Assembly: GCF_000428045.1 (NCBI RefSeq)
Contig: NZ_KE386616.1
Location: forward strand, 31,942 to 83,599
Length of the DNA: 51,658 nt
Source of the DNA: Sedimenticola selenatireducens DSM 17993
Lineage (GTDB): Bacteria; Pseudomonadota; Gammaproteobacteria; Chromatiales; Chromatiaceae
Reading direction: 5' to 3'
A program made the translations under genes and the position numbers. Below, in pieces: positions 1,763 through 40,545 of the stretch; within the stretch, counting starts at the first letter, position 1; every line of letters starts with the position of its first letter. The notes under the pieces were generated by a model, which saw only the letters and a program-made list of their open reading frames with translations, was not told the origin of the DNA and searched no databases.

Positions 1763-3910
1763 ATGCGTGAAGATGTCGCTCAATTTGAGAATATGGTCGA
1801 GTTTGATTCCCAACAGGGTGCTATCACCTTTTGTGGGCGGCGTGCCATTTTGGTCAACACAAATGCCATGGGTGTTCTGCGGCATGAGTTGATTCAAACC
1901 TTAGGACGGGATATTGCCAAGGTAATTCTCACCCGTTACGGTTTTAGTTGTGGCCAAGAAGATGCTGAAACTCTTGAGACTGAATTTCGCCCTAAAGGAT
2001 TATCAGAGTTTGTCATGGCTGGGCCTCGTCTACATATGATTGCCGGCATTGCTCAGGTAATACCAGAGAAACTGGAAGTCAATGCTGAGACAGGGAAATA
2101 CCATATGTCTGGCACTTGGTTAGGTTCTTATGAGGCAGAGCAACATCTGCATCTGTATGGCCCGGATCAAGAGTCTGTGTGCTGGACATTGGCAGGTTAT
2201 GCCTCTGGTTACTCTTCCGTAGTATTCAATACCTCAATGATCTGTGTGGAACATAAGTGTGAGGGGCGTGGCGATAACTGCTGTACCTGGTCTCTGATGC
2301 CGGCAGATGAGTGCGGTCCCGAATGGGGCGAGATACATAAATATTTCAAGCCGCTGAATATTCATGCTCACATTAATCTGCTGGAGCAGAAGGTTAAGGA
2401 ACGGACGCAAGCTTTAGAGGCCTCGGAGCAACGTTACCGTGAGTTGCTGAAAAACTTACCTGATATTGCATTTAATATGGATACGGATGGACGGCTGACT
2501 GAACTTAACAGTTCAGGCCGTGCGCGCCTGGGGATTTCCATTAGTGATGTTCCAAATGTCGTGCTGAGTGATCTTCTGGCACCCTTCGAGCATCGAAAAA
2601 TAATTAATTTTATCCGCCAATTATCAAGAGAACGCAAAACCAACCGGCTGGACGTGACTTTTATCGATGGTAATGAAGAGGAGTTTCCTGCCCAACTGCT
2701 GATAAAGCCCATAGTGGTGAAGGATGTGTTGATCGGTTACCAGGGGTTGGCGGTAGATATGGCCGCGCAGAAGGCCCGCGAACGGCGTTTGTCCGAATAT
2801 GCGAGCCGGCTTGAGCACCGCGAGGAACAAATTTATGACTTGATCAGTGACGCCCTCTATGTGACGGATCATGAAGGCTGTTTTATTCTGGTAAATGCCA
2901 CCATGGCCAGACGTATGGAAACCACCGAGGAAGAGGCCATAGGCAAGAATTTTGCCGAATTTGTTCCTCCTTCGGCCGCTGACCGTATTAATCAGGAACT
3001 CAGACTCTGTTTGAGCGGAGAACGGACAGAGCCATTTGAGTTATCCCTGCCGGGTCGCGAGGGGCAAGTGCGTATTGTCGAGGTGAGTAATGAGCCGCTG
3101 ATAGAAAATGGTAAGGTGATTGGTGTGGTAGGGGTTGCCCGGGATATCACTATCCGACGCGAACTGGAGCGTCGGCTTGCACAATCCTCACGGTTGGCCG
3201 CCCTGGGTGAGTTTGCCTCCGGGATTGCACATGAGATAAATAATCCGATCGGTCTGATTTCGGGATATGCGGAGGAGATCCTGGATCTGATGAAGGATCT
3301 GCCCGCCGCCGCTGGGCTGCCTGAAATAGAAATATTTCGGCGAGGGCTGAATACGATTCAGGAGCAGGCTTATCGCTGTAAATATATCACCGGGAACCTC
3401 CTCTCATTTGCCAAGCAGCAAAAAGTGTTGTTGCAGCCGACCTATATGGATCAGCTTGTGCGGGAATCGGTCGAATTCTTTATCGAGGGCAAACAGGCCA
3501 AGGGGATTGAGGTGTTGGTGGAGACTGAGGAGGAGTCGATGATGGTTGACACCGATCCCAACCTGTATGGTCAAGTGATGCTGAATCTGTTGAAAAATGC
3601 CTGTGATGCGATGAACGGTAAGGGGCGAATCTGGGTTCGGTTATATCGTGAACAAGAGACGATGATCCTGGAGGTGGATGACGAGGGCCCCGGGCTGGCA
3701 CCGGATATTGCCAGTCAGATATTCGATCCGTTTTTTACCACAAAGGGACCAGGGGCCGGAAGTGGATTAGGGCTTTCAATTTGTTATGGTATCGTGGGAG
3801 AACTGCAGGGAAATATCAGTTATGTTGCACGCCCTGGAGGTGGGGCTCGGTTTCGAGTAAGTACGCCCTTTGTCCCGAGTGATGAAAATAGATTCCAGAA
3901 CGGCAGATAG
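1763..3910 (+). CDS. Sensor histidine kinase with XylR_N/V4R ligand module and two PAS domains
   Basis: This 715-residue protein starts at ATG 1763 behind AGAGGA. Residues ~20-125 resemble the XylR_N activator domain, followed by a V4R segment (~125-190) with the Cys-rich CVEHKCEGRGDNCCTW stretch typical of the metal- and phenol-sensing module of XylR/DmpR-type regulators. A short coiled linker, two PAS domains (~215-335 and ~350-475), a HisKA domain with the H-box AHEINNP (His490) and an HATPase domain (N-box NLLKNACDA, G-boxes DEGPGL and GSGLGL) follow. There is no transmembrane segment, so it should be a soluble cytoplasmic kinase. The adjacent sigma54 response regulator is its obvious partner. 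By family knowledge the XylR_N/V4R unit binds aromatic effectors; sensing a cresol-like phenol is inference from the downstream operon. Confidence 0.88.
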   Translation: MREDVAQFENMVEFDSQQGAITFCGRRAILVNTNAMGVLRHELIQTLGRDIAKVILTRYGFSCGQEDAETLETEFRPKGLSEFVMAGPRLHMIAGIAQVIPEKLEVNAETGKYHMSGTWLGSYEAEQHLHLYGPDQESVCWTLAGYASGYSSVVFNTSMICVEHKCEGRGDNCCTWSLMPADECGPEWGEIHKYFKPLNIHAHINLLEQKVKERTQALEASEQRYRELLKNLPDIAFNMDTDGRLTELNSSGRARLGISISDVPNVVLSDLLAPFEHRKIINFIRQLSRERKTNRLDVTFIDGNEEEFPAQLLIKPIVVKDVLIGYQGLAVDMAAQKARERRLSEYASRLEHREEQIYDLISDALYVTDHEGCFILVNATMARRMETTEEEAIGKNFAEFVPPSAADRINQELRLCLSGERTEPFELSLPGREGQVRIVEVSNEPLIENGKVIGVVGVARDITIRRELERRLAQSSRLAALGEFASGIAHEINNPIGLISGYAEEILDLMKDLPAAAGLPEIEIFRRGLNTIQEQAYRCKYITGNLLSFAKQQKVLLQPTYMDQLVRESVEFFIEGKQAKGIEVLVETEEESMMVDTDPNLYGQVMLNLLKNACDAMNGKGRIWVRLYREQETMILEVDDEGPGLAPDIASQIFDPFFTTKGPGAGSGLGLSICYGIVGELQGNISYVARPGGGARFRVSTPFVPSDENRFQNGR

Positions 3911-4001
3911 GCTATCGCCTGTGACACCTGGATAATGGTAGACCTTATAATAGTAATGTTTAGGCGTATTTCTCTTCGCCTGAGCAGGGGTAAGTTATAC
4001 T

Positions 4002-5378
4002 GTGGATAATCGTAAAAACATTTTGATTGTTGATGATGAGCCGCGGTTCAGGGAACTCCTTTGCAGCCGTTTGCAGCGGCGCAACTACAATATAATCGAA
4101 GCTGAAGATGGTGTGCGGGCTCTGGAGCATGCTGAGCGTGCCCGAGTAGACCTGGCGTTGGTGGATATCAATCTGCCTGGGATGGATGGTATTGAGCTGT
4201 TACAACGGCTCAAAGAGCTGGATGGACGGATAGAGGTAGTGATCGTCACCGGCTATAGCAATATAGAAACTGCCATTGCGGCCATGAAACATGGGGCGTA
4301 CGACTATCTGTCGAAGCCCTACAAGCTCAGTGAACTGGAGGCGGTGGTGGAGAGGGCGCTGGAGAAGCAGCGACTGACCCAGTGCTGTGCCGGTCTCTCC
4401 GCCGAGGTGAATCATCTGCGCGAGCGCAGTTGGTCTTTGCCGGTGGGGCAGAGTGAACCTTGGCTGAATTTAATGCAAGTAGTGCAAAAGATCGCTTCCT
4501 TGGGGGTCCCGGTATCGGTGCTGATTACTGGACCGAGTGGTGCTGGCAAAGAGGTAATTGCCCGCGCCCTGCATCAATTGAGCAACGCAAATTGCAATCC
4601 GTTTGTGCCGATAAACTGCAGTCTTTTACAGGAAAATCTGCTGGATAGTGAATTGTTTGGCCATAAAAAGGGCTCATTCACTGGGGCTGTGGCTGATAAG
4701 GAGGGTCTGTTTTATACCGCGCGGGACGGTATTTTGTTTCTTGATGAGATCGGTGAGCTGCCAGAATCCAGTCAGGCCAAACTGTTGCGGGTACTGGAGA
4801 CTGGTGAGTATCGCCCGGTTGGTGGGACCAAGGAGCTCCACACCAATGCCCGTATTATTGCGGCCACCAATGTTGATCTTGAGAAGGCTGTCGCCGAGGG
4901 ACGCTTCCGGCAGGACCTGTTCTATAGGCTTAATGTAATCAATATCAAAGTCCCATCCTTGAGCGAACGGCGCGATGATGTGCCCCTGCTGGTCGAGCAT
5001 TTTATGGAACGGGGCAAGAGCCTGTCCGCACTGTCGCTGAAGTTCACCGCTGAGGCAATGGCTCGGTTAATGGCCTACCCCTGGCCAGGCAATACCCGCG
5101 AGCTACGCAATGTAGTCGAGCGAATTATGGTATTGAATGTGGGCGATCTGGTAGAGGATGCTATGGTAGCGGCCATGCTGAATCAGCAGCAGGAACAGGC
5201 AGCTGTCGCAAACACCGCCCCGTTTGAAGAGGTTATCCCGTTGGCAGAGTTGGAACATACTTATGTGAAATGGGCTGCCGAGCAGTTAGATGGAAATCTC
5301 AGTGCACTTTCCAGGTGTCTGGGGATTTCACGTTCCAAAGTATACCGAATACTCAAGCAGATCGAAGCGTCCGTTTAG
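4002..5378 (+). CDS. Sigma54-dependent response regulator, NtrC family
   Basis: A 458-residue protein with GTG start at 4002 behind AGGGG. The receiver domain (~5-120) has acidic residues D11/D12, phospho-acceptor D55 (VDINLPGMDG) and the SKPY lysine motif. The AAA+ sigma54-interaction domain (~150-380) has Walker A GPSGAGKE (177-184), the sigma54-contact loop GSFTGA (224-229, Ser in place of the common Ala) and Walker B ILFLDE (244-249). A Fis-type helix-turn-helix closes the protein (LSALSRCLGISRSKVYRIL). It lies 91 bp after the V4R kinase gene, very likely co-transcribed. Two palindromes and a sigma54 promoter lie downstream before the cytochrome operon, so activation of that operon is the expected role. 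Partner and target are inferred from position. Confidence 0.92.
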   Translation: MDNRKNILIVDDEPRFRELLCSRLQRRNYNIIEAEDGVRALEHAERARVDLALVDINLPGMDGIELLQRLKELDGRIEVVIVTGYSNIETAIAAMKHGAYDYLSKPYKLSELEAVVERALEKQRLTQCCAGLSAEVNHLRERSWSLPVGQSEPWLNLMQVVQKIASLGVPVSVLITGPSGAGKEVIARALHQLSNANCNPFVPINCSLLQENLLDSELFGHKKGSFTGAVADKEGLFYTARDGILFLDEIGELPESSQAKLLRVLETGEYRPVGGTKELHTNARIIAATNVDLEKAVAEGRFRQDLFYRLNVINIKVPSLSERRDDVPLLVEHFMERGKSLSALSLKFTAEAMARLMAYPWPGNTRELRNVVERIMVLNVGDLVEDAMVAAMLNQQQEQAAVANTAPFEEVIPLAELEHTYVKWAAEQLDGNLSALSRCLGISRSKVYRILKQIEASV

Positions 5379-5554: not shown

Positions 5555-5647
5555 CTGCGGTCAATAAAGTTAACCGCCGCCCGTTTCAAGCTGTCATCCT
5601 GAGCAATCCAAAACAGCGGCCCGGCGGCGGGTTGAGAGTGTCTCATA

Positions 5648-5682
5648 TCAAGCCACTGTCTCGATTCGAGACAGTGGCTTGA
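5648..5682. promoter_or_regulatory. Long palindrome containing activator site 1 (UAS)
   Basis: A perfect inverted repeat with 17-bp arms (TCAAGCCACTGTCTCGA and its complement) around one central T. Its core, TGTCTCGATTCGAGACA at 5657-5673, has the same TGTCT-N7-AGACA layout as the second site at 5738. It is about 175-190 bp upstream of the sigma54 promoter, a usual distance for an enhancer bound by an NtrC-type activator. Binding by the adjacent response regulator is inferred. Confidence 0.6.
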
Positions 5683-5737
5683 TAGACATTGTAAAAAAGG
5701 CAGTTTTACCTCGGATCCCACGGAGAGGAGTCATAAG

Positions 5738-5754
5738 TGTCTTATTTTGAGACA
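5738..5754. promoter_or_regulatory. Activator site 2 (UAS) upstream of the pch-type operon
   Basis: TGTCTTATTTTGAGACA is a 17-bp imperfect palindrome matching the core of the site at 5657-5673 in 12 of 17 positions, including both outer pentamers. The centres are 81 bp apart, roughly eight helical turns. It lies about 90 bp upstream of the -24 element. Confidence 0.55.
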
Positions 5755-5844: not shown

Positions 5845-5861
5845 TTGGCCTTTGACTTGCA
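5845..5861 (+). promoter_or_regulatory. Sigma54 (-24/-12) promoter of the p-cresol-type operon
   Basis: TTGGCCTTTGACTTGCA carries GG at 5847-5848 and GC at 5859-5860 with exactly 10 bp between, the defining sigma54 spacing, plus the TTGCA context of the -12 element. Transcription would begin near 5872. That rules out the upstream in-frame GTG at 5862 as a start and supports the ATG at 5931. Confidence 0.75.
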
Positions 5862-5930
5862 GTGCCCTATGTGGTCGAGCCCGAGGGGCATTGCCCGTTT
5901 ATAAAGAAATACAGCCATGAGGAGTTCAGT

Positions 5931-6284
5931 ATGAAGACCAAGCGTGCCTGGCAGACAGCGCTATTGATCACCCTGTTGGGGAGCAACCTTTTACTTTTTA
6001 GTACTCTTGTTCGTGCCTACAATGCAGATTCATGGCGCGAGGCGGGTCAGGTTTACCAAAAGGTTTGTGGCCATTGCCATGAAACCGGAATCGGGCCGCA
6101 GCTCAAGGGACGCAATCTCCCAACTGCCTACATCAATCAGATGGTGCGACAGGGTAATCGGGCCATGCCTGCGTTTCGACTGTCTGATGTCAATGACCAG
6201 ACGTTGAATCAATTGGCGCTGTTGATCGGTAACAGCAAGCTGACAGACAACCTCATGCGTAGTGGCAAGGTTGCTGAAAAATAG
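5931..6284 (+). CDS. pchC: Periplasmic cytochrome c subunit of a p-cresol methylhydroxylase-type enzyme
   Basis: A 117-residue protein starting at ATG 5931 behind GAGGAG. Residues 1-30 form a Sec signal peptide (basic start, hydrophobic core, VRAY end). The haem c site is CGHCH at 46-50, and the likely Met ligand is M79 in AMPAF. After cleavage the mature protein would be about 88 residues, close to the small cytochrome subunit PchC of flavocytochrome 4-cresol methylhydroxylase. It would take electrons from the flavoprotein and pass them to the respiratory chain. First gene after the sigma54 promoter. EhyA-type cytochromes of eugenol hydroxylase are the nearest alternative. Confidence 0.82.
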   Translation: MKTKRAWQTALLITLLGSNLLLFSTLVRAYNADSWREAGQVYQKVCGHCHETGIGPQLKGRNLPTAYINQMVRQGNRAMPAFRLSDVNDQTLNQLALLIGNSKLTDNLMRSGKVAEK

Positions 6285-6292
6285 GGGGCGAG

Positions 6293-7003
6293 ATGGAATT
6301 GAAGCGACGCAGATTTTTACAGGGCATGCTGGCCGGTGGCGGGGCCTTGGCCAGCGGTGGCCTGTTCAGCGCTATGGCGGCTGCACTTGATGTCAGTCCG
6401 GTTTCTGCCTCAGCCAGACAGCTGTGGCTTAAGAATGGCGCTCCACGTGAGGCCGAGTTTGCTCAAGGATTGGCAATGGCCAACCCGGATGGGCTAACCC
6501 GTTTATCTCTCAGCCGTGCCGAGCTCTATCGCCCTACACATCTACAACACCTGCTCGCTACCTACAGCGGACAGCAGCTGGTGGGGATGATGGAACAGGG
6601 TGCCTTTGAACTCCTGCATGAACTGGTGCGCAGTGCTGGTGGGCGTGTGCTCTACACCGGCCAGCACAGGTGGGGAGGAGGGGCGCATGATCGCCCTCGT
6701 CACGCGATCGCGACCACGCCACAGACCCAGCGCCTGGGCAACATCTTATACCGCAATTTGCGAGTCCTCGGGGAGCATGTGTTGCTGAATCAGCTGCACG
6801 CTACGGGCAGTATGGCAAGCCTGTCGGGTACCCGAGGGCCGTCGATGCCCCACGGCTCCTGGCCGGAATTGGTGGGTGCGGCCCTGGGAAATGTCGGGGC
6901 ATCTGCAGGACGGCCCTATCCCGTTGAGAAAAAACCACACATGCAATTGGTCGCCGATGCAACGCCGGGCGGGAGCCTTGTCTCCTTTATGTTTGAGGTG
7001 TAA
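6293..7003 (+). CDS. pchX: PchX-like Tat-exported protein of unknown function
   Basis: This 236-residue protein begins 8 bp after the cytochrome stop, behind a GGGGGCGAG ribosome site. Its N-terminus RRRFLQG followed by a hydrophobic Gly/Ala stretch is a twin-arginine signal. The mature part has no recognised enzyme motif or Cys pair. By position it corresponds to the uncharacterised pchX gene between pchC and pchF in Pseudomonas p-cresol operons. Tat export suggests it folds, perhaps around a cofactor, before reaching the periplasm. A role as assembly factor or chaperone for the flavocytochrome is a guess. Confidence 0.6.
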   Translation: MELKRRRFLQGMLAGGGALASGGLFSAMAAALDVSPVSASARQLWLKNGAPREAEFAQGLAMANPDGLTRLSLSRAELYRPTHLQHLLATYSGQQLVGMMEQGAFELLHELVRSAGGRVLYTGQHRWGGGAHDRPRHAIATTPQTQRLGNILYRNLRVLGEHVLLNQLHATGSMASLSGTRGPSMPHGSWPELVGAALGNVGASAGRPYPVEKKPHMQLVADATPGGSLVSFMFEV

Positions 7004-7048
7004 TCGCCGGGCCATCAGATCGCTTAACTGCATCCGAGGAGGATGAAG

Positions 7049-8593
7049 ATGACAACAAAATATATTGCTCTGCCGGAAGGTGTGAGCGAACAGCAGTTTG
7101 ACCAGGCTATTGCCGAGTTTCGTCGTGTTTTGGGTGATGAGCACGTACTGATCAAGCCTGAGGAGTTGGCTCCCAACATGAAAATCATGTTGCCGGTGGA
7201 TACCTCCCAGCACACGCCGTCCGCCGCCATCCTGCCTAAAAGCGTCGAACAAGTGCAGGAAATAGTAGCTATCTGCAATCGCTACAAGGTGCCGGTGTGG
7301 CCGGTTTCTACCGGGCGCAACCTCGGCTACGGCTCCGCGGCCCCCGCTACTCGTGGCCAAGTGGTGCTCGATATGCGGCTGATGAACCGCATTTTGGAAG
7401 TCGATGCCGATCTCTGCACCGCACTGGTCGAACCCGGGGTGACCTATCAGCAGCTGCACGATTATATCCGGGAACATGATTTGCCCCTGTGGCTCTCATG
7501 TCCGGCCCCTTCCGCCATCGCCGGGCCAGTGGGTAATTCGCTCGATCGCGGGGTGGGTTATACCCCTTACGGTGAACACTTTCTGTTCCAGTGCGGTATG
7601 GAGGTGGTGATGCCGGACGGCGATGTCTTGCGAACCGGCATGGGGTCCATGTCAAACTCCAATACCTGGCAGGTTTTTAAGTGGGGTTATGGCCCCAGCC
7701 TGGATGGCATTTTTACCCAGTCAAATTATGGCATCGTGACCAAGATGGGGATGTGGCTGATGCCTGCGCCGCCCGCCTTCAAGCCGTTCCTCATTCGCTA
7801 TCCAGATGAGGTCGATATCGACAAAATCGTTGAAACGTTACGCCCCCTGCGCATCGCCATGATCATCCCTAATGCGGTGGTCATTGCGCATACGCTTTGG
7901 GAGGCCGGCGCGTTCGTTCGGCGGAGTGATTTTTACCAAGGCAAAGGTTCGATTTCGGAAGAGGCGGTGGGAGAGATCCGCAAGACCCATAATCTGGGTG
8001 CGTGGAACGTCTATGCCGGCCTCTACGGCAGTCCGGAACAAATCGAAGTGAATTGGAACATCATTAAGGGTGCCGTGGAGGCCTCTGGCGGTGAGCTATT
8101 AACAGAGGAGCAGGTGGGAGACAGTCCCACATTCCGCTACCGCAGAGACTTGATGCGCGGCGATATGAATCTGCAGGAGTTCGGCCTTTATAACTGGCGT
8201 GGGGGTGGTGGGTCACTCTGGTTTGCACCGGTCTCACAGGCGCGCGGGAGTGAGACCTTGAAGCAGATGGATTTAGCCAAGCGCATCCTGGGCAAGTACG
8301 GATTTGATTATGTCGGCGAGTTCATTGTCGGATGGCGCGATATGCACCATGTCATTGATCTCCTATACGACCGAACGAATCCCGAGGAGACCAGTAAAGC
8401 CAATGCCTGTTTCAGGGAACTCATAGATGAGTTCGCGGCGCAGGGCTATGGCATGTACCGCACAAACACGGCTTTTATGGACAAAGTGGCCGACACATAC
8501 GGCCCAGTAAAACGCAAAGTCAATCAGGTGCTTAAACGGGCATTGGACCCTAACGGCATTATTGCTCCGGGAAAGTCGGGTATTTATGTTTAA
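7049..8593 (+). CDS. pchF: 4-cresol dehydrogenase (hydroxylating) flavoprotein subunit, VAO family
   Basis: GAGGAGG at 7036-7042 touches the ATG at 7043, so the ATG at 7049 is the better start, giving 514 residues. The N-terminal half is a PCMH-type FAD-binding domain (PVSTGRNLGYGSAAP, LVEPGVTYQQL). The C-terminal half is the VAO-type cap domain. A Tyr in LYNWRGGGGS lies at residue 381 (383 from the earlier ATG), numerically very near Tyr384, which holds FAD covalently in Pseudomonas PchF. It is the candidate attachment site. The family reaction is methyl oxidation of p-cresol to 4-hydroxybenzyl alcohol and then the aldehyde, with water as oxygen source. No signal peptide is seen. 4-Ethylphenol, vanillyl alcohol or eugenol remain possible substrates. 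Confidence 0.85.
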   Translation: MTTKYIALPEGVSEQQFDQAIAEFRRVLGDEHVLIKPEELAPNMKIMLPVDTSQHTPSAAILPKSVEQVQEIVAICNRYKVPVWPVSTGRNLGYGSAAPATRGQVVLDMRLMNRILEVDADLCTALVEPGVTYQQLHDYIREHDLPLWLSCPAPSAIAGPVGNSLDRGVGYTPYGEHFLFQCGMEVVMPDGDVLRTGMGSMSNSNTWQVFKWGYGPSLDGIFTQSNYGIVTKMGMWLMPAPPAFKPFLIRYPDEVDIDKIVETLRPLRIAMIIPNAVVIAHTLWEAGAFVRRSDFYQGKGSISEEAVGEIRKTHNLGAWNVYAGLYGSPEQIEVNWNIIKGAVEASGGELLTEEQVGDSPTFRYRRDLMRGDMNLQEFGLYNWRGGGGSLWFAPVSQARGSETLKQMDLAKRILGKYGFDYVGEFIVGWRDMHHVIDLLYDRTNPEETSKANACFRELIDEFAAQGYGMYRTNTAFMDKVADTYGPVKRKVNQVLKRALDPNGIIAPGKSGIYV

Positions 8594-8647: not shown

Positions 8648-10090
8648 ATGCAAGAGTACAGACTATTTATAAATGGTGAATGGGTGGAGACGCAGGATGG
8701 TGAAGTGCTGGATGATATCAATCCGTCCACTGGAGAGGTTTTTGCCCGCGTCCATCAGGCCGGTCCCAAAGATGTGGAGCATGCGATTACCGCGGCCAGT
8801 GCGGCCAGTGTCGCTTGGGGTAAGACGCAACCGGCGGTGCGTGAAGAGATCCTGATTAAGGCGGCGGACTGCCTTCAGGCACGTATTCACGAGATTGCCG
8901 ATGTGTTGATTGACGAGGCCGGTTCGACCTTTGGAAAGGCGATGTTCGAGGCTTCGTTTGTGGTCAACCTGCTGCGAAGTGCGGCTGGTGAAGCACGCCG
9001 TATCTTTGGCGAGACGATGCCCTCGGATGGGCCCGATATCTTCTCCATGTCGGTGCGCCGTCCTCTGGGGGTCATTGCGGGTATTGCGCCCTTCAATTTT
9101 CCTTTCCTGTTGGCTTGTAAAAAAGTGGCATTAGCCATTGCGGCGGGAAATGCCTTTGTCCTTAAACCCTCTGAGGAGACGGCGGTCACGGGTTTGAAGA
9201 TTGCAGAGATATTTGAACAAGCGGGATTGCCCAAAGGCGTACTGAATGTAATTCCGGGAAGCGGCCCCGAGGTGGGCGGACGATTGGTGGATGATCCCCG
9301 GGTGAAGATGATTACCTTTACGGGATCAACGGTAGTGGGTAAGAAACTTGCCGTGCAAGCGGCTCAACAGCTTAAGAAGATCACGTTGGAATTGGGTGGC
9401 AAGAGTCCACTCATTGTACTGGCGGATGCAGATTTGGATTATGCCGTGGATGCCGCCTGCTTCGGTATCTTCCTGCACCAGGGTCAGGTATGTATGGCCA
9501 ATTCGAAGCTGATTGTTGAGGCGGCTGTGTACGATGCCTTCTGTGACAAGTTTGCCGCCAAGGTGAAAAGTCTCAAGGTGGGTGATCCGCGTCAGCCGAA
9601 TACGGTGATTGGCCCATTGATTCGTGGTGCGCAGTGCCAGGTAATCGATCGCCATGTTCAAGATGCTCTTGACAAGGGAGCGCGACTGCTGACTGGCGGT
9701 AGCAGCGAATCCAATTTTTATCAGCCCACCGTTATGGCCGATGTGGGCCCTGACATGCAGATTTATCGTGAGGAGAGTTTTGGTCCCGTGGTTTCGATCA
9801 TCAAGGCGGATGATCATGAGGCGGCCCTCTATATCGCTAATGACAGCGAGTATGGACTCTCTTCAGCGGTTATTACCAACGATCTGCAAAAGGCAATGGA
9901 GCTCTCCCTTCGACTCGAAGCAGGCATGGTGCATATCAATGATTGCACGGTGTTTGATGAGCCACATGTGCCCTTTGGAGGTGTCAAGAAAAGTGGCTTT
10001 GGACGCGAAGGAGGGCGATATTCGATGGAAGAAATGACCGAAGTCAAGTGGATTACCATTCAGATGGGTAAGCGACACTTCCCATTCTAG
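8648..10090 (+). CDS. pchA: Aldehyde dehydrogenase, probably 4-hydroxybenzaldehyde dehydrogenase
   Basis: A 480-residue NAD(P)-dependent aldehyde dehydrogenase with full family architecture. It has the substrate and cofactor motifs (GVIAGIAPFNFPF, GNAFVLKPSEE), catalytic Glu248 in LELGGKSP and catalytic nucleophile Cys282 in HQGQVCMAN. It follows the flavoprotein gene by 54 bp in the same direction. In known p-cresol operons the aldehyde dehydrogenase PchA converts 4-hydroxybenzaldehyde to 4-hydroxybenzoate. That assignment is by context, since the family is broad (vanillin and benzaldehyde dehydrogenases look alike). Here the gene is downstream of pchF rather than at the operon front. Confidence 0.82.
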   Translation: MQEYRLFINGEWVETQDGEVLDDINPSTGEVFARVHQAGPKDVEHAITAASAASVAWGKTQPAVREEILIKAADCLQARIHEIADVLIDEAGSTFGKAMFEASFVVNLLRSAAGEARRIFGETMPSDGPDIFSMSVRRPLGVIAGIAPFNFPFLLACKKVALAIAAGNAFVLKPSEETAVTGLKIAEIFEQAGLPKGVLNVIPGSGPEVGGRLVDDPRVKMITFTGSTVVGKKLAVQAAQQLKKITLELGGKSPLIVLADADLDYAVDAACFGIFLHQGQVCMANSKLIVEAAVYDAFCDKFAAKVKSLKVGDPRQPNTVIGPLIRGAQCQVIDRHVQDALDKGARLLTGGSSESNFYQPTVMADVGPDMQIYREESFGPVVSIIKADDHEAALYIANDSEYGLSSAVITNDLQKAMELSLRLEAGMVHINDCTVFDEPHVPFGGVKKSGFGREGGRYSMEEMTEVKWITIQMGKRHFPF

Positions 10091-10185
10091 AACCCGGAAA
10101 ACATCAACCCTGTGCAGTTTGTATGTGTGGCCACAGCTGTTGTGGTCAAAGCAGGAGTCTGCACGCCATAATAAAGTGAAAAGTG

Positions 10186-11796
10186 ATGGAAAAGACGGTT
10201 GAAAGATATTTTCCCTCGGGTGCGATGAATGCGGTCGAGGAGTTGATTGGGCCTGCATTGTCAAAGGGGTTGGAGCAACAGACCGCCCTGATAGGGGATA
10301 CAAAATCTCTTACTTACGGTGAGTTGGATTTGCTCGTTAACCGGTATTCGGATGCCCTGCGTACGGCGGGCGTAGTGCGGGAAAATCGTGTGCTCTTTAT
10401 GCTTAACGATAGCCCCGATTTTGTGGCTGCTTACCTAGGGGCTATGCACATGGGGGCTGTTTCGATTGCCTTTAATGTGCGTTCAGCAGCCAAGGATCTG
10501 CTGTTTGTTATCGAGGACAGCAACTGCACCATGCTGGTCATTGATGCTGCCTATCTACCTATCTACCTGCAGATCGCGGATAGAATAAAGCACCCCCTGA
10601 AAGTGGTGGTCGATGGTGACTATGAGGGCGATCTTCCAACGCTGGGCAGCTTTGTCGAAAGTGGCGCAACGCGCTCACCGGCGCTCAAGGTGTCACCCGA
10701 TGATATGGCTTTCTGGGTCTATACCTCTGGCACTACAGGGACCCCGAAGGCGGCGGTGCACCTGCATCACGATGTAATAATTGCCGACCTGCATATGCGG
10801 GAAAATCTGGGAGTTGAGCCTGGTGACAGGATATTCTCTACTTCCAAACTGTTTTTTGCCTATGCCCTGGGCCACTCCTTGTTGGGAGGGTTGCGTAGCT
10901 GTGCCACGATTATCCTGACCAAACAGTGGCCGGATGCAGCTGCAATTGCGGAGCTAATTCGCCGCCATCAGCCTGACTTGGTCTTTAGCGTGCCTACCCT
11001 TTATCGCAATCTGTTGCGGGATGGTGTTGCGGATACTGCGCCATTTAAATCTGTAAGGGTCTATGTCTCTGCTGGTGAAAAACTACCCGTTAAGCTGTTT
11101 GATCAATGGCGGCTGGCAACAGGACGCCCAATTCTTGAGGGTATTGGTACTTCAGAGACACTGTTCCTTTATGTAACCAACAGCATCAAGCAGTTTCGTT
11201 CCGGGAGTTGTGGCAAGCCCGTACCCTGGGCGGAAATCAAGCTCATGGATGAGTCAGAACAGGCTATCTCCACTACTGAAACACCGGGACAACTTTGGGT
11301 GCGCATGCCCTCAGTCGCCGATCGTTACTGGAATCGCCAGGATCAATCCCGTAAATCTTTTCATGGCCATTGGTACAAGACCGGTGACATGTTCCGTGTT
11401 GATGAAGATGGATGGTGGTACCACCTGGGACGTGGTGACGAGATGCTGAAGATCTCCGGGCAGTGGGTGAGCCCGGCGGAAATAGAAGCTTGTGCGCTGA
11501 CAGTGCCCGGGGTAGAAGCTGCAGCCGTTATTGGCTATTCAAATGAAGATAGTCTGGTCCGCTCCGCGTTGTTCGTCGTGCCCCAGCAAAGGGGTACGGA
11601 TGATGACATGTTGGCTGACAAGATCCGTCAGGCCTTGATTCAGACACTCTCCATCTACAAATGCCCGCGCATTATCCGTCTCGTTGATGAAATGCCCTGC
11701 ACGGCGTCCGGAAAGATGCAGAAGTATAAACTGCGCGAGCTATTACGCGAGGGGGCTGGTGAAGGAGATCAGAGTGCTTGTCAAGTCGAGGTTTAA
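10186..11796 (+). CDS. Benzoate-CoA ligase family enzyme (4-hydroxybenzoate-CoA ligase candidate)
   Basis: A 536-residue AMP-forming acyl/aryl-CoA ligase. ATG 10186 is preferred over the GTG one codon earlier. The P-loop YTSGTTGTPKAAVH, the YKTGD motif and the C-terminal catalytic lysine context (MPCTASGKMQKYKLREL) are intact, so it should adenylate and thioesterify its acid. The whole-protein pattern is that of benzoate-CoA ligase type enzymes. Being last in the operon after the aldehyde dehydrogenase, its substrate is most likely 4-hydroxybenzoate. Forming 4-hydroxybenzoyl-CoA points to the anaerobic benzoyl-CoA route rather than ring hydroxylation by PobA, but no reductase genes are in the window. 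Confidence 0.82.
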   Translation: MEKTVERYFPSGAMNAVEELIGPALSKGLEQQTALIGDTKSLTYGELDLLVNRYSDALRTAGVVRENRVLFMLNDSPDFVAAYLGAMHMGAVSIAFNVRSAAKDLLFVIEDSNCTMLVIDAAYLPIYLQIADRIKHPLKVVVDGDYEGDLPTLGSFVESGATRSPALKVSPDDMAFWVYTSGTTGTPKAAVHLHHDVIIADLHMRENLGVEPGDRIFSTSKLFFAYALGHSLLGGLRSCATIILTKQWPDAAAIAELIRRHQPDLVFSVPTLYRNLLRDGVADTAPFKSVRVYVSAGEKLPVKLFDQWRLATGRPILEGIGTSETLFLYVTNSIKQFRSGSCGKPVPWAEIKLMDESEQAISTTETPGQLWVRMPSVADRYWNRQDQSRKSFHGHWYKTGDMFRVDEDGWWYHLGRGDEMLKISGQWVSPAEIEACALTVPGVEAAAVIGYSNEDSLVRSALFVVPQQRGTDDDMLADKIRQALIQTLSIYKCPRIIRLVDEMPCTASGKMQKYKLRELLREGAGEGDQSACQVEV

Positions 11797-12029
11797 GTCA
11801 GGGCCGTGGTTAAAACAGAGCAGTTACCGTTTTAGATCGAATCTTCAGTGGAGAGATAAATCAATGAGATAGTGAAGTATACCAAGTTTTATGAGGTGTT
11901 TTATTTAAAGAAAATCGAGAATCAAATTTTTGGTTTATGTAGCCAGATAAGTGTTGGAAGTACTTGTTTAGGTCCGCCTTAAACAAAACCAGAGAGTTTT
12001 GTATTTTAAAATAACGTTGGAGTGGAGCA

Positions 12030-12911
12030 ATGAATAAATTATTAATAGGTATAGTATGTTTTGGTCTGTCACTGAGCGCCTGTGCAGGTGGTCATTATGT
12101 TCCTGGAATTGAAGGTATAAAAGGGGCATCTGTCCCTCCACCAGGTAATTATTATCTTGGCTACTTAGTAAAGTATGACATTGATGCATTGAAAGCACCG
12201 GGTACAGATACAGATATCCCAACTAATAACAATGGAACGGTTACTGCCATAGCAAACCGTATTGTGCATATTACAAATACTAAATTATTAGGTGCTGATT
12301 ACGGAATGGAAGTAATCATTCCTGTAATAAACAAAGATTTCAATTTTAGTGCTGCTGGTTATGCAGATGAAAAAACTGCTGTAGGAGATATTTTTATTGG
12401 TCCGGTCGTGCTCGGGTGGCATGGCGATCGTTGGGATGCGGTAGGTGCAGCAGGTATTTGGCTGGATACGGCTAACAGTGCTGAGATGGCTTCTGCAGGT
12501 AATGGATATCGATCAGTAATGCTAACCGGCGGTGGTACCACGTACTTGAACGCAGATAAAAGCCTGTCAGCGTCAGCTCTGATGCGTTACGAGATAAACT
12601 CAAAAGATGATGCCGGATTAGAACCAGGTGACCAGATTTCTTTCGAATGGGGAATTGGCAAAAAAATCAATAATAACGTAGAGCTTGGTCTGGTTGGCTA
12701 TGATCAGTGGCAAGTAAGCAAGGATAAGGGAACGGGATCAACAACTAATAAATTCAGCAAGCATGCAATTGGTGTCGAGGGCTCTTACTTTTCTACTACG
12801 ATAGGTGGTGTATTAAAAGCTGCCTATTACAATGAATATGCTATTGAAGCTGGCAGTAATCCAGCTCCTTCCGGCAACACTATTCGGTTGACTTTGATCA
12901 AGCCATTTTAA
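12030..12911 (+). CDS. Outer-membrane protein, MetA-pathway phenol degradation family
   Basis: A 293-residue protein behind GGAGTGGAG. It has an N-terminal export signal with a lipobox-like LSAC (Cys18) followed directly by GGHYVPGIEGIKGASVPPPG, the hallmark start of the Phenol_MetA_deg family. The rest alternates short hydrophobic beta-strand-like segments and ends in Phe (IKPF), as beta-barrel outer-membrane proteins do. Such proteins often sit beside aromatic or hydrocarbon catabolic genes and are thought to aid substrate entry. Codon use is clearly more AT-rich than in neighbours, suggesting separate acquisition. Whether it is lipid-modified at Cys18 or cleaved normally cannot be told. 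Confidence 0.78.
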   Translation: MNKLLIGIVCFGLSLSACAGGHYVPGIEGIKGASVPPPGNYYLGYLVKYDIDALKAPGTDTDIPTNNNGTVTAIANRIVHITNTKLLGADYGMEVIIPVINKDFNFSAAGYADEKTAVGDIFIGPVVLGWHGDRWDAVGAAGIWLDTANSAEMASAGNGYRSVMLTGGGTTYLNADKSLSASALMRYEINSKDDAGLEPGDQISFEWGIGKKINNNVELGLVGYDQWQVSKDKGTGSTTNKFSKHAIGVEGSYFSTTIGGVLKAAYYNEYAIEAGSNPAPSGNTIRLTLIKPF

Positions 12912-13603
12912 ACGGTGCTCTTGGTTTAAGTAGTGCCCCGGCAGAAGCGGTGTATTTTATCGAACAAGGCTGAAATCCAGTTTGTGTTTTCTTGGCTAGC
13001 AATACGCTTATTACCTAGTGGGCTATGCGGTTAATTCTGAAACGAAAGTTTATATTGAAAGCGTTGATTGATCTGTAGACGCGTCACTGCAACACGAATT
13101 CTGAGTCCTTTTAGTTTTTCGTTGTTTATGGTTATTCACATAACTTTCCGCATGGCCCACTAGATCCTGCTGAAAAAGCAGGACTTATCGAAAATGCATT
13201 AGATGCACATTGACCGAGGCATAATGGTGCACGACAACCACTACAGAGGTGAGGATCATATGAAAAGGCAAATAGGTATGCCTGACCCAGATCGACTACG
13301 ACTGTGAGATGGCTTTTGTCTCCGTCTCTGAAAAGGATAGCGAAAGTGAGGCTCTGGCCGTTGTCTGGATCGTTACCGATCCCAATAATCAGGCCTGGGT
13401 TGGCTGTGTGAACCGGGCATGCCATCTTGTCGGTTTTGAAACTACCGGCCACCCGCGACCAAGCCAAATTGATTATTCTTAAAGACAACATCGCATAATA
13501 ACCCTACTCTGTGCCAGAATTATGCGCGTCACAGCGATCGGCTGATCATTGTGGTGCCCGTAACCCGGATTTAACTCACTGGAACTGTTGATCAATACCT
13601 GTC
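12912..13603. other. Gene-free decayed stretch
   Basis: No intact gene was recognised. It contains a 7-bp hairpin TCCTGCT-GAAAA-AGCAGGA at 13165-13183 without a T-run, and an acetyltransferase remnant at ~13279-13440. The minus-strand 119-codon ORF covering 13132-13491 overlaps that remnant and has no recognisable domain, so it is taken as a shadow. Confidence 0.5.
13279..13440 (+). pseudogene. Pat-type GNAT acetyltransferase remnant
   Basis: The frame from 13279 reads CLTQIDYDCEMAFVSVSEKDSESEALAVVWIVTDPNNQA (split here: CLTQIDYDCEMAFV, then VVWIVTDPNNQ). These are recognisable pieces of the GNAT domain at the C-terminus of Pat/acetyl-CoA synthetase-like protein acetyltransferases, which carry x-L-T-Q-I-D-Y-D-R-E-M-A and D-P-D-N blocks. 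A TAG precedes the segment in frame, and the expected acetyl-CoA-binding block is missing, so only a fragment remains. Confidence 0.5.
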
Positions 13604-14815
13604 ATGAAGCGCTTATGGCTGATGCTCTGTTTGCTGGCGGGGTGCCTGGTATCCACCCTGGGATATGCGCTGCCGCCACTGCAATTGTTTGTCGACATCA
13701 CACCGCCGGGAGGCGTGCTGACCCTGCCGGCAGGGAGCTATGCCGGTCCGGTGGTGATCCGACGGCCGATCATTATTGACGGCAGGGGCGAGGTGACGGT
13801 GGATGGTGAGGGTGGCGGCACCGTGGTTACGGTCCTGGCGGACGGGGTGACAATCCGTGGCCTGCACCTGACCAACTCCGGCCATTCCCATGATCAGGTG
13901 GACGCCGCTCTGCTGCTGGCGGCGGATGACGCGCTGGTGGAGGACAACCGCATGGATGACGTGTTGTTCGGGATTCATATTCGCCAGGCCAACGGCAATG
14001 TGGTCCGCAACAATCGGATTGAGTCGCGTGCGGAGGAACCCAGCCTGCGCGGGGAGGGCATTCGCGTCTGGTACAGCAGCGACAACCTGATGGAAGGTAA
14101 CCACATCACTCAGGTCCGGGATGTGGTGTTTACCAACTCGTCGGATAACCGCTTTATCGGCAACACCATCGAGAACAGCCGCATCGGCATGGAGCTGATC
14201 TTTTCGCCCGATAACGAAATAGCTGAAAATACCCTGATCAGAAACACCACGGGTATTGTGCTGATCTACTCCAACGGCGTGGTCATTCGGGAAAACCGGC
14301 TGCTGAATATGCCGGATGCCACCAGTTCCGCGCTGGCGGTGAAAGAGAGTTCCCAGGTGCGGCTGGAGGCCAACGATATTGTCCGCTGTGCCGTTGGCCT
14401 GACCGCCAACTCGCCCACCGATCCGGAGAATATCATCTATCTCACCAATAACCACTTTGCCTACAACGATGTGGCGATGTACTTCTATGGTGAAAAGGGC
14501 GGGCATATCATTCATGGCAACCGTTTTACCGGCAATATCATACCCATCGCCGTGAGTGCCGCCTCCAGCGCTCTGGACAACGACTGGCGGGGCAACGCCT
14601 GGGACACCTACGAAGGATTCGACCGGGACCTGGATGGTACCGGTGATACCCCGCACAATATATATCTCTATTCCGACCGGCTCTGGATGGACCGGCCGAT
14701 GGCGCGCTTCTTCCGTGGCTCCCCGGTGCTGGAGATGGTGGATTTTATCGAGCGTCTGGCGCCCTTTTCCATGCCCGACCTGATCCTCTCTGACCCTTCA
14801 CCGCGCATGCACTGA
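13604..14815 (+). CDS. NosD-like periplasmic parallel beta-helix protein
   Basis: A 403-residue protein with a Sec signal peptide (first ~22 residues, ending near GYALP). It then has many imperfect ~22-residue coils with N-x-I/V spacing (VEDNRMDDVLFGI, VRNNRIESR, MEGNHITQV, IGNTIENSRIGMEL), the signature of right-handed parallel beta-helix (NosD/CASH) proteins. The nearest named family is NosD, needed for copper-site maturation of nitrous oxide reductase. No nosZ, nosF or nosY is adjacent; the next gene is a HugZ-like protein. It may be a detached nosD or a different beta-helix maturation factor. Confidence 0.75.
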   Translation: MKRLWLMLCLLAGCLVSTLGYALPPLQLFVDITPPGGVLTLPAGSYAGPVVIRRPIIIDGRGEVTVDGEGGGTVVTVLADGVTIRGLHLTNSGHSHDQVDAALLLAADDALVEDNRMDDVLFGIHIRQANGNVVRNNRIESRAEEPSLRGEGIRVWYSSDNLMEGNHITQVRDVVFTNSSDNRFIGNTIENSRIGMELIFSPDNEIAENTLIRNTTGIVLIYSNGVVIRENRLLNMPDATSSALAVKESSQVRLEANDIVRCAVGLTANSPTDPENIIYLTNNHFAYNDVAMYFYGEKGGHIIHGNRFTGNIIPIAVSAASSALDNDWRGNAWDTYEGFDRDLDGTGDTPHNIYLYSDRLWMDRPMARFFRGSPVLEMVDFIERLAPFSMPDLILSDPSPRMH

Positions 14816-14891
14816 AGCGTTGGACGGGGTTTATCTCCGCGTCGCCTCGTGTCAGCATGGGCGTCTGTTTTTCAACCGATGACTGTGCTTT

Positions 14892-15398
14892 ATGACCACC
14901 CCCGAATCAACCGATCTGCGACAGGCAGAGGCGGACCTTCAAGCTCTGATTGATTCGCACCAGACCCTGCTGCTCTCCACCGTGACGGCCACAGGTCAGC
15001 CGGCAATCAGCTATGCCCCCTATGTCCGGGATGCGTCGGGCCGTTTCTATATCTTTATCAGTGACCTGGCGGAGCATACGGGCAATCTGCAGCAGCAGGG
15101 CAGTGCCGCGATCCTGTTTGTCCGTCCGGAGGCGGAAACCCGCAACCCGTTCGCCCGGGAGCGGGTGATCCTGCAGTGCCGGGCGGGTGAGGTTCCCGAG
15201 ACCGATACAAATCATGCCGCCATGCTGTCTCGGCTGGAGCAGCGTTTTGGCGATACCGTGGCCCTGTTGCGCCGCCTGCCGGACTTCCATCTGTTTGCCC
15301 TGACGCCACAGTCGGGTCGCTATGTGGCGGGCTTTGGCAAGGCGTATGATCTGGAGTTGCCGGCCGGTACTCTTCGTCCCGTCTCGCCGCCGGACTGA
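14892..15398 (+). CDS. HugZ/HutZ-like haem-utilisation protein, PNPOx-like fold
   Basis: This 168-residue protein has the pyridoxamine-phosphate-oxidase-like split barrel (LLLSTVTATGQPAISYAPYV, FYIFISDLAEHTGNL) and near its end GRYVAGFGKAYDL, the motif typical of HugZ/HutZ haem-degrading proteins. It is close to the ~170 residues of HutZ. Family members bind haem and open the ring to release iron. No haem uptake genes are near, so the link to iron supply rests on the family only. The downstream trmN6 frame starts 8 bp after its stop. Confidence 0.75.
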   Translation: MTTPESTDLRQAEADLQALIDSHQTLLLSTVTATGQPAISYAPYVRDASGRFYIFISDLAEHTGNLQQQGSAAILFVRPEAETRNPFARERVILQCRAGEVPETDTNHAAMLSRLEQRFGDTVALLRRLPDFHLFALTPQSGRYVAGFGKAYDLELPAGTLRPVSPPD

Positions 15399-15405
15399 GT
15401 GCGCG

Positions 15406-16137
15406 GTGTCGATTTTCCGCTTTCAGCGATTCAGCGTGCAGCAGGGTGAGACCGCCATGAAGGTGTGCACTGACGCCACGCTGTTTGGCGCCATGGCGCC
15501 GGTTGCCGGCGGCGAGCGAGTGCTGGACATCGGTGCCGGCAGCGGGCTGCTGTCGCTGATGCTGATGCAGCTGGGGGCGGGCCATGTCACTGCCGTGGAA
15601 TTGACCGAACAGGCGTGTCGGGACGCCGCCGTCAATTTCTCCGCCAGTCCCTGGTCTGAGCGGTTGGAACTGGTGTGGCAGTCGATACAGGACTATGCCG
15701 AATGCTGCGATCAACGTTATGACCTGATCATCAGCAACCCACCGTTTTTTGAGCAGCACAGTAAAAACAGCGTCAATCTGCGCCGCCTGGCCCGCCATGC
15801 CGATCTGCTGCCGCACCATGAACTGGTGCGGCTTGTAGCCCGGTTATTGGGTGAGGCCGGGCGCTTCTATCTGCTGATTCCGGCACATGAGGTGGTCCGG
15901 ATTACTGATCTGGCGGCGGCTGCCGGCCTGTGGCTGACCGGGCGGGTCGACTATGCCGGGCTTGCCCACAGCCGGGCCAAGGTGGCCGCGCTCACCTTCA
16001 GTCGCCGACCTGAAATGTTCGTCTGCCGCCGGCTGGTCATCTATAATGCGCCGCGCGCCTACAGCGAAGAGAGTGCCCGTTATCTCTCCCCCTTTCTGTT
16101 ACGATTTGCCGCCCCGGCCGACTGGCAGCAAGCGTAG
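15406..16137 (+). CDS. trmN6: tRNA1(Val) (adenine-37-N6)-methyltransferase
   Basis: The GTG at 15406 gives SIFRFQRFSVQQ at the N-terminus and 243 residues, nearly the E. coli length. The SAM-binding motif is VLDIGAGSGLLSLMLMQ and the catalytic N6-adenine methylase motif is NPPFF. The segment MKVCTDATLFGA is characteristic of the YfiC/TrmN6 family. It methylates A37 of tRNA1(Val). Initiation 8 bp after the hugZ-like stop suggests translational coupling. An in-frame upstream start at 15322 would overlap the previous gene and add residues not in the family. Confidence 0.88.
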   Translation: MSIFRFQRFSVQQGETAMKVCTDATLFGAMAPVAGGERVLDIGAGSGLLSLMLMQLGAGHVTAVELTEQACRDAAVNFSASPWSERLELVWQSIQDYAECCDQRYDLIISNPPFFEQHSKNSVNLRRLARHADLLPHHELVRLVARLLGEAGRFYLLIPAHEVVRITDLAAAAGLWLTGRVDYAGLAHSRAKVAALTFSRRPEMFVCRRLVIYNAPRAYSEESARYLSPFLLRFAAPADWQQA

Positions 16138-16165
16138 CTGCAGAAACCTTGTTGGAGTAAGAAGT

Positions 16166-38273: not shown

Positions 38274-40007
38274 TTACCCAACCTTGCCGGGGGACGGGTT
38301 AACCTTCTTCTCCTGCTGGACCATCTGGTATCCACCGCTTCTGATTCCATCCATTAACAACTGCACATTGTCCTCGGAGGCACCGACCATTTTCAATGCC
38401 TCTGCACCGAGTCTGAGACTGGCCTCAATCGCCTCGGGAAATGCCTGGGTAGCCCCCGCCTTGAGCAGCTGGCCGCTGGCTTCCAGATCCCGGGCGCGGG
38501 CAATGACCGGTATGCGGGGATAGGTGTTTCGGAAGTGGGAAACCGCGCGCATCACGGTCGGACCATGGTCGATGGTGAGTACCACCAGGGATGAGCGTTC
38601 CGCATGGGCGGCTGCCAGAAGTTCGGGATCGGAGATGTCGCCATAGAGTACCGGGTGTCCATTGGCCGTCCCGCGCTTGACGTGTGCCGGATTGGTGTCA
38701 AAGGCGATAAAGGGTATACCGCTGGTTTGTAACAGCGTCGCCACTGTGTGACCGACGCGCCCATAGCCGCCAATCAGCACACTTCTCTCCTCAAGTTCCA
38801 ACCCTTCCCTGGAGGGTGCACTCGATCCGTGGGAGCTTTTCTCCAGATACCGGGCCAGCCAATCACCGAGACGGATCAACAGTGGGGTGAACATCATGCT
38901 GAGGGAGATCACCGCCACTGACATGATGAATATTTCCTCATCGATTACCTTGAGTGCCAGTGCCGAGCCGAACAGCACAAAACCGAATTCGCCGGCCTGG
39001 GCTAGCAGAAAGGTAATACGGGTGGCTTCTCCCCGGCTGTAGCCAAAGGCAATGGCCAGCGGGAACAGCACCAACAGCTTGATACTGATCAGAACCACTG
39101 TATGCCCGATAAACAGCAGCGGGCGTTCGGTCAGCGCTCCCAGATCAATGGACATGCCCACGGCGACGAAGAACAGACTCATCAGTAAGCCCTTGTAGGG
39201 CTCGATGAAGGCGCGTATCTGCATGTTGTAGCTGGAGCCGGAGAGCAGCATGCCCATGATAAAGGCGCCCAGCGCCATGGAGAGTCCGGCCCGGTGCATC
39301 ATCCAGGCGGCAAAGAATACGGCGAGCAAGACAACCAGCAGAAAGGCTTCCCGGTTGTCGTGGCGCGCCAGCCACTCCAGTGCCATGGGCACGATCTTCA
39401 GGCCGAATATCCAGAGCACAGCAAAGATTCCGGCCAGAATCAGCAACTGCTGCCACAGCGGTATGCTGGATGAGATCGCTGTATTGTTCGACAGCAGTGC
39501 CACCAGGGCCAGCAGCGGTACCACCGCCAGATCCTGCATCAGCAGGATGGCAAAGGTGCCGCTGCCATGCTTACTGGCCAGTTCCCCCCGTTCCTGCAGC
39601 AGTTGCATCACAAAGGCGGTGGATGAGAGTGACAGGGTAAGGCCGATCAGCAGTGCGGTTTGCCATGACTTCACACCGATAGAGACATAGAGTGTAATCG
39701 CCAGGCCCACCAGCAGGATTTGCAGGGAACCGAGGCCGAACAGGTAGCGCCGCATCGACCAGAGCCGGGTAGGGCGCATCTCCAGGCCGATGACGAACAT
39801 CAGCAGCACCACCCCCAGTTCGGTGAAATGGCGCACATCCTCTACATGGGCCGTGACATAGGGGCCGGGCGAGTGGGGCCCTACCACCACCCCTGCGATC
39901 AGCAGCCCCAGTATCGATCCCAGACCCAGATGGCGGAACAGTGTTACCGCTACCGATGTGACGGCCAGCAGCAACAGGGCGGAAAAAATGAAAGTATCCA
40001 GATGCAC
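38274..40007 (-). CDS. Kef-type K+/H+ antiporter with RCK_N domain
   Basis: A 577-residue CPA2 protein from a GTG start at 40007. About 12 membrane helices contain the transport motif QDLAVVPLL, whose Q-D is typical of Kef electroneutral K+/H+ exchange. The C-terminal TrkA-N (RCK) domain has Rossmann GGYGRVGHTVATLL and acidic AFDTNP. A paralogue on the plus strand (45327) has a nearly matching RCK_N domain (VYGDISDPELLA, VPVIARARDLE, AFPEAIEASLRLGA) but a divergent membrane half. Role: potassium and pH homeostasis. Confidence 0.9.
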   Translation of the reverse strand: MHLDTFIFSALLLLAVTSVAVTLFRHLGLGSILGLLIAGVVVGPHSPGPYVTAHVEDVRHFTELGVVLLMFVIGLEMRPTRLWSMRRYLFGLGSLQILLVGLAITLYVSIGVKSWQTALLIGLTLSLSSTAFVMQLLQERGELASKHGSGTFAILLMQDLAVVPLLALVALLSNNTAISSSIPLWQQLLILAGIFAVLWIFGLKIVPMALEWLARHDNREAFLLVVLLAVFFAAWMMHRAGLSMALGAFIMGMLLSGSSYNMQIRAFIEPYKGLLMSLFFVAVGMSIDLGALTERPLLFIGHTVVLISIKLLVLFPLAIAFGYSRGEATRITFLLAQAGEFGFVLFGSALALKVIDEEIFIMSVAVISLSMMFTPLLIRLGDWLARYLEKSSHGSSAPSREGLELEERSVLIGGYGRVGHTVATLLQTSGIPFIAFDTNPAHVKRGTANGHPVLYGDISDPELLAAAHAERSSLVVLTIDHGPTVMRAVSHFRNTYPRIPVIARARDLEASGQLLKAGATQAFPEAIEASLRLGAEALKMVGASEDNVQLLMDGIRSGGYQMVQQEKKVNPSPGKVG

Positions 40008-40545
40008 AAAATCACCGGTTCTTGAAAACAGACCCTGATGATACCGGTCAATGGGATTGCAGAGAAGGCGATGATCCGGTCAATTCTTTTGATGTTGTCT
40101 GTTTTTTTGAAAATTAATCGGCTGCAAGACCGGGTTCGCTCCAGGCTTCTTTGTGTCGTGCGGGGGCTTGCCGCCGGTCTGGGCGGGGTACGGTCTGATC
40201 TGCCGGTGGTTGAACAAGCTGGTTATCTTATCAACTATCCAGGACCGGGTGGTCAATAGCAACACCCCGAATAGGATATCTTGATGTCGTTCTGCTCTGT
40301 GTTTTTCACGAATGCGGTAAACCACCAACAATACAGATCATTTCGCTTCCCGGAGTGAGTGACGCAAGTACGACCGTAAAACGGATATTGTGAGTTGCGA
40401 TGCCTCCCGGTCGGCTTCGCTCGGGTATATCAGCAAAGTAATGTAATTAAACCCGTACCCGTCGCTGTAGTTAGACAGGCGGTTATCGCGGGTACGCGAC
40501 TGCATGAAGTGAGACCGTCCATCTGCCAGGCATTAGGTGAAGCCA
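40008..40545. other. Gene-free stretch between kef-type and usp-type genes
   Basis: No gene was supported. The 73-codon frames at 40038 and 40080 have no domain or ribosome site. The stretch 40360-40545 has an eroded look, with repeated short GACCGT/GTACGCG words, possibly an old mobile-element scar, but nothing identifiable. Confidence 0.4.

Follow-up and report, generated by a model that had tools for sequence, protein, structure and literature searches.

One-component activators such as MopR, DmpR/CapR, PoxR and MobR sense phenols through a XylR_N/V4R module, which carries a His/Trp anchor and a zinc set and is fused to a sigma54 AAA+ domain. A second layout has been described as PcrSR of Aromatoleum aromaticum EbN1, a sigma54 two-component system (PMC10715001). 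According to that paper, the PcrS sensor has a V4R domain with phenol-anchoring His and Trp residues, and the pcrSR genes intercalate cmh, hbd and hcl2, with a sigma54 consensus promoter upstream of cmh. The predicted role of PcrSR is reported there to have been corroborated by in-frame deletion (the paper cites Vagts et al. 2020, its reference 13). The present analysis concerns a stretch of 51,658 nucleotides from Sedimenticola selenatireducens DSM 17993 (contig NZ_KE386616.1, positions 31,942 to 83,599), here called the window. The kinase and response regulator genes at 1763-5378 in all probability form a PcrS/PcrR two-component system that would switch on anaerobic p-cresol degradation.

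The pair resembles PcrS/PcrR of EbN1 in placing a V4R sensor with the His and Trp anchor in a sigma54 pair beside p-cresol genes. It shares the module, the anchor, the zinc set and the sigma54 output with the one-component proteins, but in those the sensor and the AAA+ domain are fused, whereas here the kinase and the regulator are separate. An earlier note on this DNA had read this as the splitting of a one-component sensor of the XylR/DmpR kind into a two-component relay. Novelty of such a split is rejected, since the same arrangement has been published as PcrS/PcrR (PMC10715001). Passages of PMC2700814, PMC5847659 and PMC12826048 yielded nothing on the architecture. The two-component mechanism proposed in the same note appears essentially correct. 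The layout itself is therefore already known, and what the present analysis adds is a clade-wide pocket signature and a pair of promoter sites.

Domains of the kinase and the regulator

The domain assignment of the kinase is far beyond chance. Pfam matches place XylR_N at residues 8-106 (E 1.3e-29), V4R at 124-174 (E 5.4e-07; 30.0 bits, narrowly missing the curated cut-off of 31), PAS-type domains at 223-274 and 355-467, HisKA at 481-553 and HATPase_c at 598-703. Both families expected at the N-terminus are thus matched, V4R falling one bit under its cut-off. The V4R assignment is secure because the whole ligand module matches phenol sensors of known structure, namely MopR (E 8.3e-33), CapR/DmpR (1e-31) and PoxR (2.2e-30), and because two other methods agree. 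The NCBIfam model MobR covers residues 3-218 with 128 bits, far below its whole-protein cut-off of 999. Foldseek aligns the sensor region of the predicted kinase model with PoxR and MopR at a target template modelling (TM) score of 0.71-0.78 and a probability of 1.00, so that the predicted structure also conforms to the fold of the known phenol sensors. The kinase core of the model matches ZraS (target TM 0.58-0.61). The full-length model (ColabFold, 18 orthologs) is of modest quality, with a mean predicted local distance difference test score of 69.4 and a predicted TM score of 0.32; the fold matches are therefore used per domain only.

Hydropathy suggests no membrane span in the kinase, the highest 19-residue mean being 1.32, where 1.6 is usually asked for. 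HisKA and HATPase_c follow the sensor, in place of the AAA+ domain joined to it in a single XylR/DmpR-type polypeptide. This upholds the description of a XylR_N/V4R module on a soluble PAS-PAS histidine kinase. His490, Asn608, Asn612, Asp640/Gly642 and Gly668/Gly670 are invariant in the 18 aligned kinases.

The sigma54 activator had been read as a separate receiver-AAA-Fis protein, and Pfam bears this out with Response_reg, Sigma54_activat and a weak, sub-threshold HTH_8 (18.3 bits; cut-off 22) in the gene at 4002-5378. The regulator carries Asp11, Asp12, Asp55, Thr83, Lys105 and the GSFTGA motif, and sigma54 (rpoN) is encoded in the same genome. The kinase core (like ZraS by fold) and the receiver-AAA+-Fis layout are those of ZraS/AtoS kinases and AtoC/NtrC regulators. 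Unlike AtoS and AtoC themselves, the two proteins fall far under the curated cut-offs (242 of 646 for AtoS, 392 of 714 for AtoC), and neither ZraS/AtoS-type kinases nor AtoC/NtrC-type regulators are known to have a V4R module.

The ligand pocket and the PAS domains

The pocket was compared at the MopR residues named in PMC10715001, with the zinc ligand numbers counted along the MopR alignment. The window kinase has the phenol-anchoring residues as His91 and Trp119. In MopR numbering, all 18 kinases keep Pro103, His106, Val114, Trp134, Tyr161 and Ala162, together with the zinc ligands Cys155, Glu178, Cys181 and Cys189. The same 18 kinases differ from MopR-type sensors at four positions, where Phe132 is replaced by Gly, Tyr176 by Cys, Ile191 by Trp and Phe99 by Val, Ile or Ala; Ala replaces Val112 in 17 of them. 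The first three form a signature, Gly117/Cys161/Trp176 in the window kinase, and none of these residues occurs at its position in the 19 one-component sensors compared (17 genomic, MopR and CapR). These replacements agree with the view, published in PMC10715001, that the distal pocket of PcrS is enlarged.

In a tree of the sensor modules, those of the 18 kinases cluster together with 100/100 support and are separate from the 19 one-component sensors. The tree is midpoint-rooted and does not allow the order of the architectures to be read. The kinase group includes the protein of locus L063, which we take for that of A. aromaticum EbN1, and the window kinase is a candidate orthologue of PcrS itself (UniProt Q5P0J1). 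The V4R phenol sensor hence serves two output machines, a kinase and an AAA+ activator, and a residue signature separates the two groups.

The ligand is likely to be p-cresol, as the earlier note had supposed; the downstream p-cresol operon, the shared promoter sites and the deletion evidence published for a homologue all point to it. The same mechanism could instead be tuned to another para-substituted phenol, with p-ethylphenol, 4-hydroxybenzyl alcohol and lignin phenols as examples, or to a wider range of ligands. PchF-family enzymes, of which the p-cresol methylhydroxylase flavoprotein encoded downstream is one, take several para-alkylphenols. The window kinase alone has Tyr150/Ser151 (MopR 165/166), as in MopR and CapR, where all 17 relatives have Phe/Ala, and its ligand could therefore differ. 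This alternative is nevertheless unlikely, as the remaining listed pocket positions carry the residues of the PcrS-type clade, and PchF matches p-cresol methylhydroxylase (753 bits) better than eugenol oxidase (452) or vanillyl-alcohol oxidase (394).

It had also been suggested that PAS domains of the kinase might add a redox or oxygen input to the aromatic signal. Two such domains are present, and the genome encodes 4-hydroxybenzoyl-coenzyme A (CoA) reductase and benzoyl-CoA reductase, enzymes of anaerobic aromatic breakdown. However, across residues 222-467 the window kinase shares no His, Cys or Trp column conserved in at least 16 of the 18 kinases, although other residues could still hold a cofactor. 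The sole exception among the columns is 240, which is His in 17 kinases and Asp in the window kinase. Judged by His/Cys/Trp conservation only, a cofactor-anchoring residue as in the redox and oxygen kinases FixL and NifL is absent, and PAS domains are often mere dimer relays. Cofactor input was rejected on this comparison; a redox or oxygen role is very unlikely and finds no support in the sequence.

Putative promoter sites upstream of the p-cresol operon

Two 17-bp palindromes of the form TGTC-N9-GACA lie at 5657 and 5738, upstream of cytC, the first gene of the operon. At 12 loci, the regions of some 500 bp that precede cytC hold 11 perfect sites against 0.068 expected from first-order Markov resampling of each region. 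This ratio is descriptive, because the word was chosen following an initial inspection (spacers of 8-10, window and relatives) and the relatives are not independent. Perfect sites are found at 7 of the 12 loci, and the 18 loci, 333 kb in total, hold 12 occurrences; when the window is left out, 9 perfect sites remain in 11 upstream regions. With one mismatch allowed, a pair of sites 81-100 bp apart is seen at 10 of the 12 loci, its proximal member 93-108 bp before a sigma54-like site. The pairs were hand-picked from the one-mismatch lists, L055 having five candidates. Over the 4.59 Mb of the genome itself, TGTCT-N7-AGACA occurs only at the two promoter places, and the looser site pair only once, at this promoter, with none for the reversed control.

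The available text of PMC10715001 makes no mention of upstream activating sites, inverted repeats or palindromes, and "upstream activating" was not found among the matches listed for the Aromatoleum/p-cresol literature. As putative regulator sites, the pair ties the regulator to the p-cresol operon. The palindromes at 5646-5684 might otherwise be a terminator or chance repeats, given a 19-nt perfect inverted repeat 267 bp past the regulator stop. There is only a slim chance of this: no T-run stands behind the repeat and the terminator scan has no entry there, on which ground the terminator was rejected, while chance is opposed by the count in the 12 upstream regions and by the single genomic pair. 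As a further observation, a one-mismatch copy of the site begins at 5639, 18 bp before the start of the distal palindrome, and equal spacing is seen at L061, L067, L068 and L055.

Taken as a PcrS/PcrR system, the locus would function as follows. The kinase would act as a cytoplasmic dimer that takes p-cresol into its V4R pocket, where His91 and Trp119 would hold the hydroxyl and the methyl group would lodge in the distal space opened by changes such as Phe to Gly117 and Tyr to Cys161. The change may be relayed through the helical linker and both PAS domains to HisKA; the kinase would then autophosphorylate at His490 and pass the phosphate to Asp55 of the adjacent regulator. Upstream of cytC, the regulator is predicted to assemble on the pair of TGTC-N9-GACA sites and to drive sigma54 RNA polymerase at the -24/-12 element that starts at 5845. 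Judging from their enzyme families, the operon products would oxidise p-cresol to p-hydroxybenzaldehyde and p-hydroxybenzoate and form the CoA thioester, which the genome's 4-hydroxybenzoyl-CoA and benzoyl-CoA reductases could process. The pocket set and the site pair give direct predictions on ligand choice and promoter targets.

Relatives, probable acquisition and neighbouring genes

The kinase gives the only XylR_N match in its own genome. A search of 93 genomes, including its own and eight congeners, some of them incomplete, found the kinase at E 1e-60 in its own genome only, and in none of the eight congeners or 49 other family members. In 369 genomes sampled from the class, the sensor was found at E 1e-45 again in this genome alone, and the plasmid records held no kinase match at E 1e-60. 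The picture differs in the family of a Thauera, where 97 of 297 genomes have a sensor match at 1e-30. The top matches occupy 16 places (E 4.2e-75 or better, 55-61% identity) and are followed by a gap, the next standing at 6.5e-40 (42%). With Thauera phenylacetica, the 16 places give 17 distinct ortholog genomes. L003 was left out of the counts as a duplicate of L064 (both genome G094), and L069, a one-component control, was dropped.

The regulator gene directly follows the kinase gene on the same strand in all 17 ortholog genomes, and the two proteins very probably form a two-component system. That they are not cognate, the kinase feeding another regulator and PcrR being driven by something else, is highly improbable: the 91-bp gap between the genes speaks for it, but the adjacency in 17 of 17 genomes and the description of PcrS and PcrR as one system (PMC10715001) speak against it.

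PchF was found in 14 of the 17 ortholog genomes, in 8 within the fetched stretch and in 6 more by genome search. In G139 and G343 it shares a contig with the kinase, at distances from the regulator of about 8 and 14 kb. At L068, L002 and L004, cytC is seen and the contig then ends; a PchF search of these genomes was not made. L063, which we take to be A. aromaticum EbN1, has the order CoA ligase, kinase, regulator, cytC, PchF and aldehyde dehydrogenase, and its kinase is 50% identical to that of the window. The gene for the CoA ligase comes after that for the aldehyde dehydrogenase here, whereas in L063 a homologue 35% identical precedes the kinase.

Several points tell against a PcrS/PcrR system acting on this operon, besides the Tyr150/Ser151 pair and the assumed identity of L063. 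PchF is on another contig than the kinase in 4 of the 17 relatives, and the kinase and regulator genes are within about 16 bp of contact in the relatives, against the wider gap here. The sigma54 pattern occurs six times in the window where 3.3 are expected and is therefore weak alone. No perfect TGTC-N9-GACA is present in 5 of the 12 upstream regions, and L065 and L068 are without a site pair even at one mismatch. The single word TGTCT-N7-AGACA and its reversed control are equally frequent in the genome (2 each), and the core TGTCT..AGACA is often TGTCGCA.. in the relatives.

The spacing of the genes, the pocket pair and the site core set the window system apart from its PcrS/PcrR-type relatives. 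A tentative and rather doubtful extension is that a PcrS/PcrR system was acquired, along with its operon, by a host that apparently does not belong to the Thauera/Aromatoleum family, and that its ligand and DNA codes were both rewritten on a conserved relay: the Tyr150/Ser151 lid, one-component-like, may alter the ligand range, and the sites have the TGTCT..AGACA core. At E 1e-120, PchF was found in 3 of the 93 genomes, its own and two same-family relatives without the kinase, and in none of the eight congeners. Joint gain of kinase, regulator and operon is likely, because the congeners are without PchF as well as without the kinase. Just upstream of the kinase, at 1200-1560, a broken frame has a DDE_3 transposase match of 19.1 bits (cut-off 28.6); such a remnant would fit horizontal arrival. 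L077 (G039), from a same-family relative without PcrS/PcrR, holds a p-cresol methylhydroxylase cluster at 8988-16388, and an AraC-like gene was seen nearby by eye.

The gene pair stands beside the p-cresol methylhydroxylase genes, which lie under a putative sigma54 promoter recognised by its sequence (Table 1). The genome also holds the alpha subunit of 4-hydroxybenzoyl-CoA reductase (hcrA) and benzoyl-CoA reductase B.

Table 1. Features of the kinase-regulator pair, the promoter region and the p-cresol operon (window positions; aa, amino acids).
Feature	Position	Strand	Remarks
PcrS-type soluble sensor histidine kinase, 715 aa	1763..3910	+	ATG start; XylR_N/V4R - helical linker - PAS - PAS - HisKA (His490) - HATPase_c
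XylR_N/V4R ligand module, residues 1-205	1763..2377	+	His91/Trp119 anchor; zinc set Cys140, Glu163, Cys166, Cys174; pocket Gly117, Cys161, Trp176
PcrR-type response regulator, 458 aa	4002..5378	+	GTG start; receiver (Asp55), sigma54 AAA+ with GSFTGA at residue 224, Fis-type helix-turn-helix
19-nt perfect inverted repeat	5646..5684	.	Centred on distal regulator-binding-like site TGTCTCGATTCGAGACA (5657-5673)
Proximal regulator-binding-like site TGTCTTATTTTGAGACA	5738..5754	.	108 bp before the -24 element
Sigma54-like -24/-12 promoter TTGGCCTTTGACTTGCA	5845..5861	+	Sequence pattern
Small cytochrome c (pchC-like, cytC), first p-cresol operon gene	5862..6284	+	Listed GTG start
236-aa protein of unknown function	6293..7003	+	N-terminus Tat-signal-like by inspection
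PchF-type p-cresol methylhydroxylase flavoprotein	7043..8593	+	Best solved match 1dii, 753 bits, residues 9-514
Aldehyde dehydrogenase	8648..10090	+	p-Hydroxybenzaldehyde dehydrogenase by context only
Benzoate-CoA ligase family protein	10183..11796	+	TIGR02262, 434.6 bits, cut-off 375.25
Phenol_MetA_deg protein, probably a cluster member	12030..12911	+	Family match

On inspection, cytC more probably starts at the in-frame ATG at 5931, because the listed GTG abuts the promoter. Neither Pfam nor NCBIfam gives a match to the 236-aa protein at E 0.001, and weak relatives of it were noticed between cytC and pchF in L076, L077 and L055. Elsewhere in the window, the end of a reading frame at 1-219 encodes 14-residue repeats (GGPGMMGGPQGYPQ), and the region 38274-47036 contains three Na+/H+ exchanger-family proteins, two of them with TrkA_N, interleaved with two universal stress proteins.

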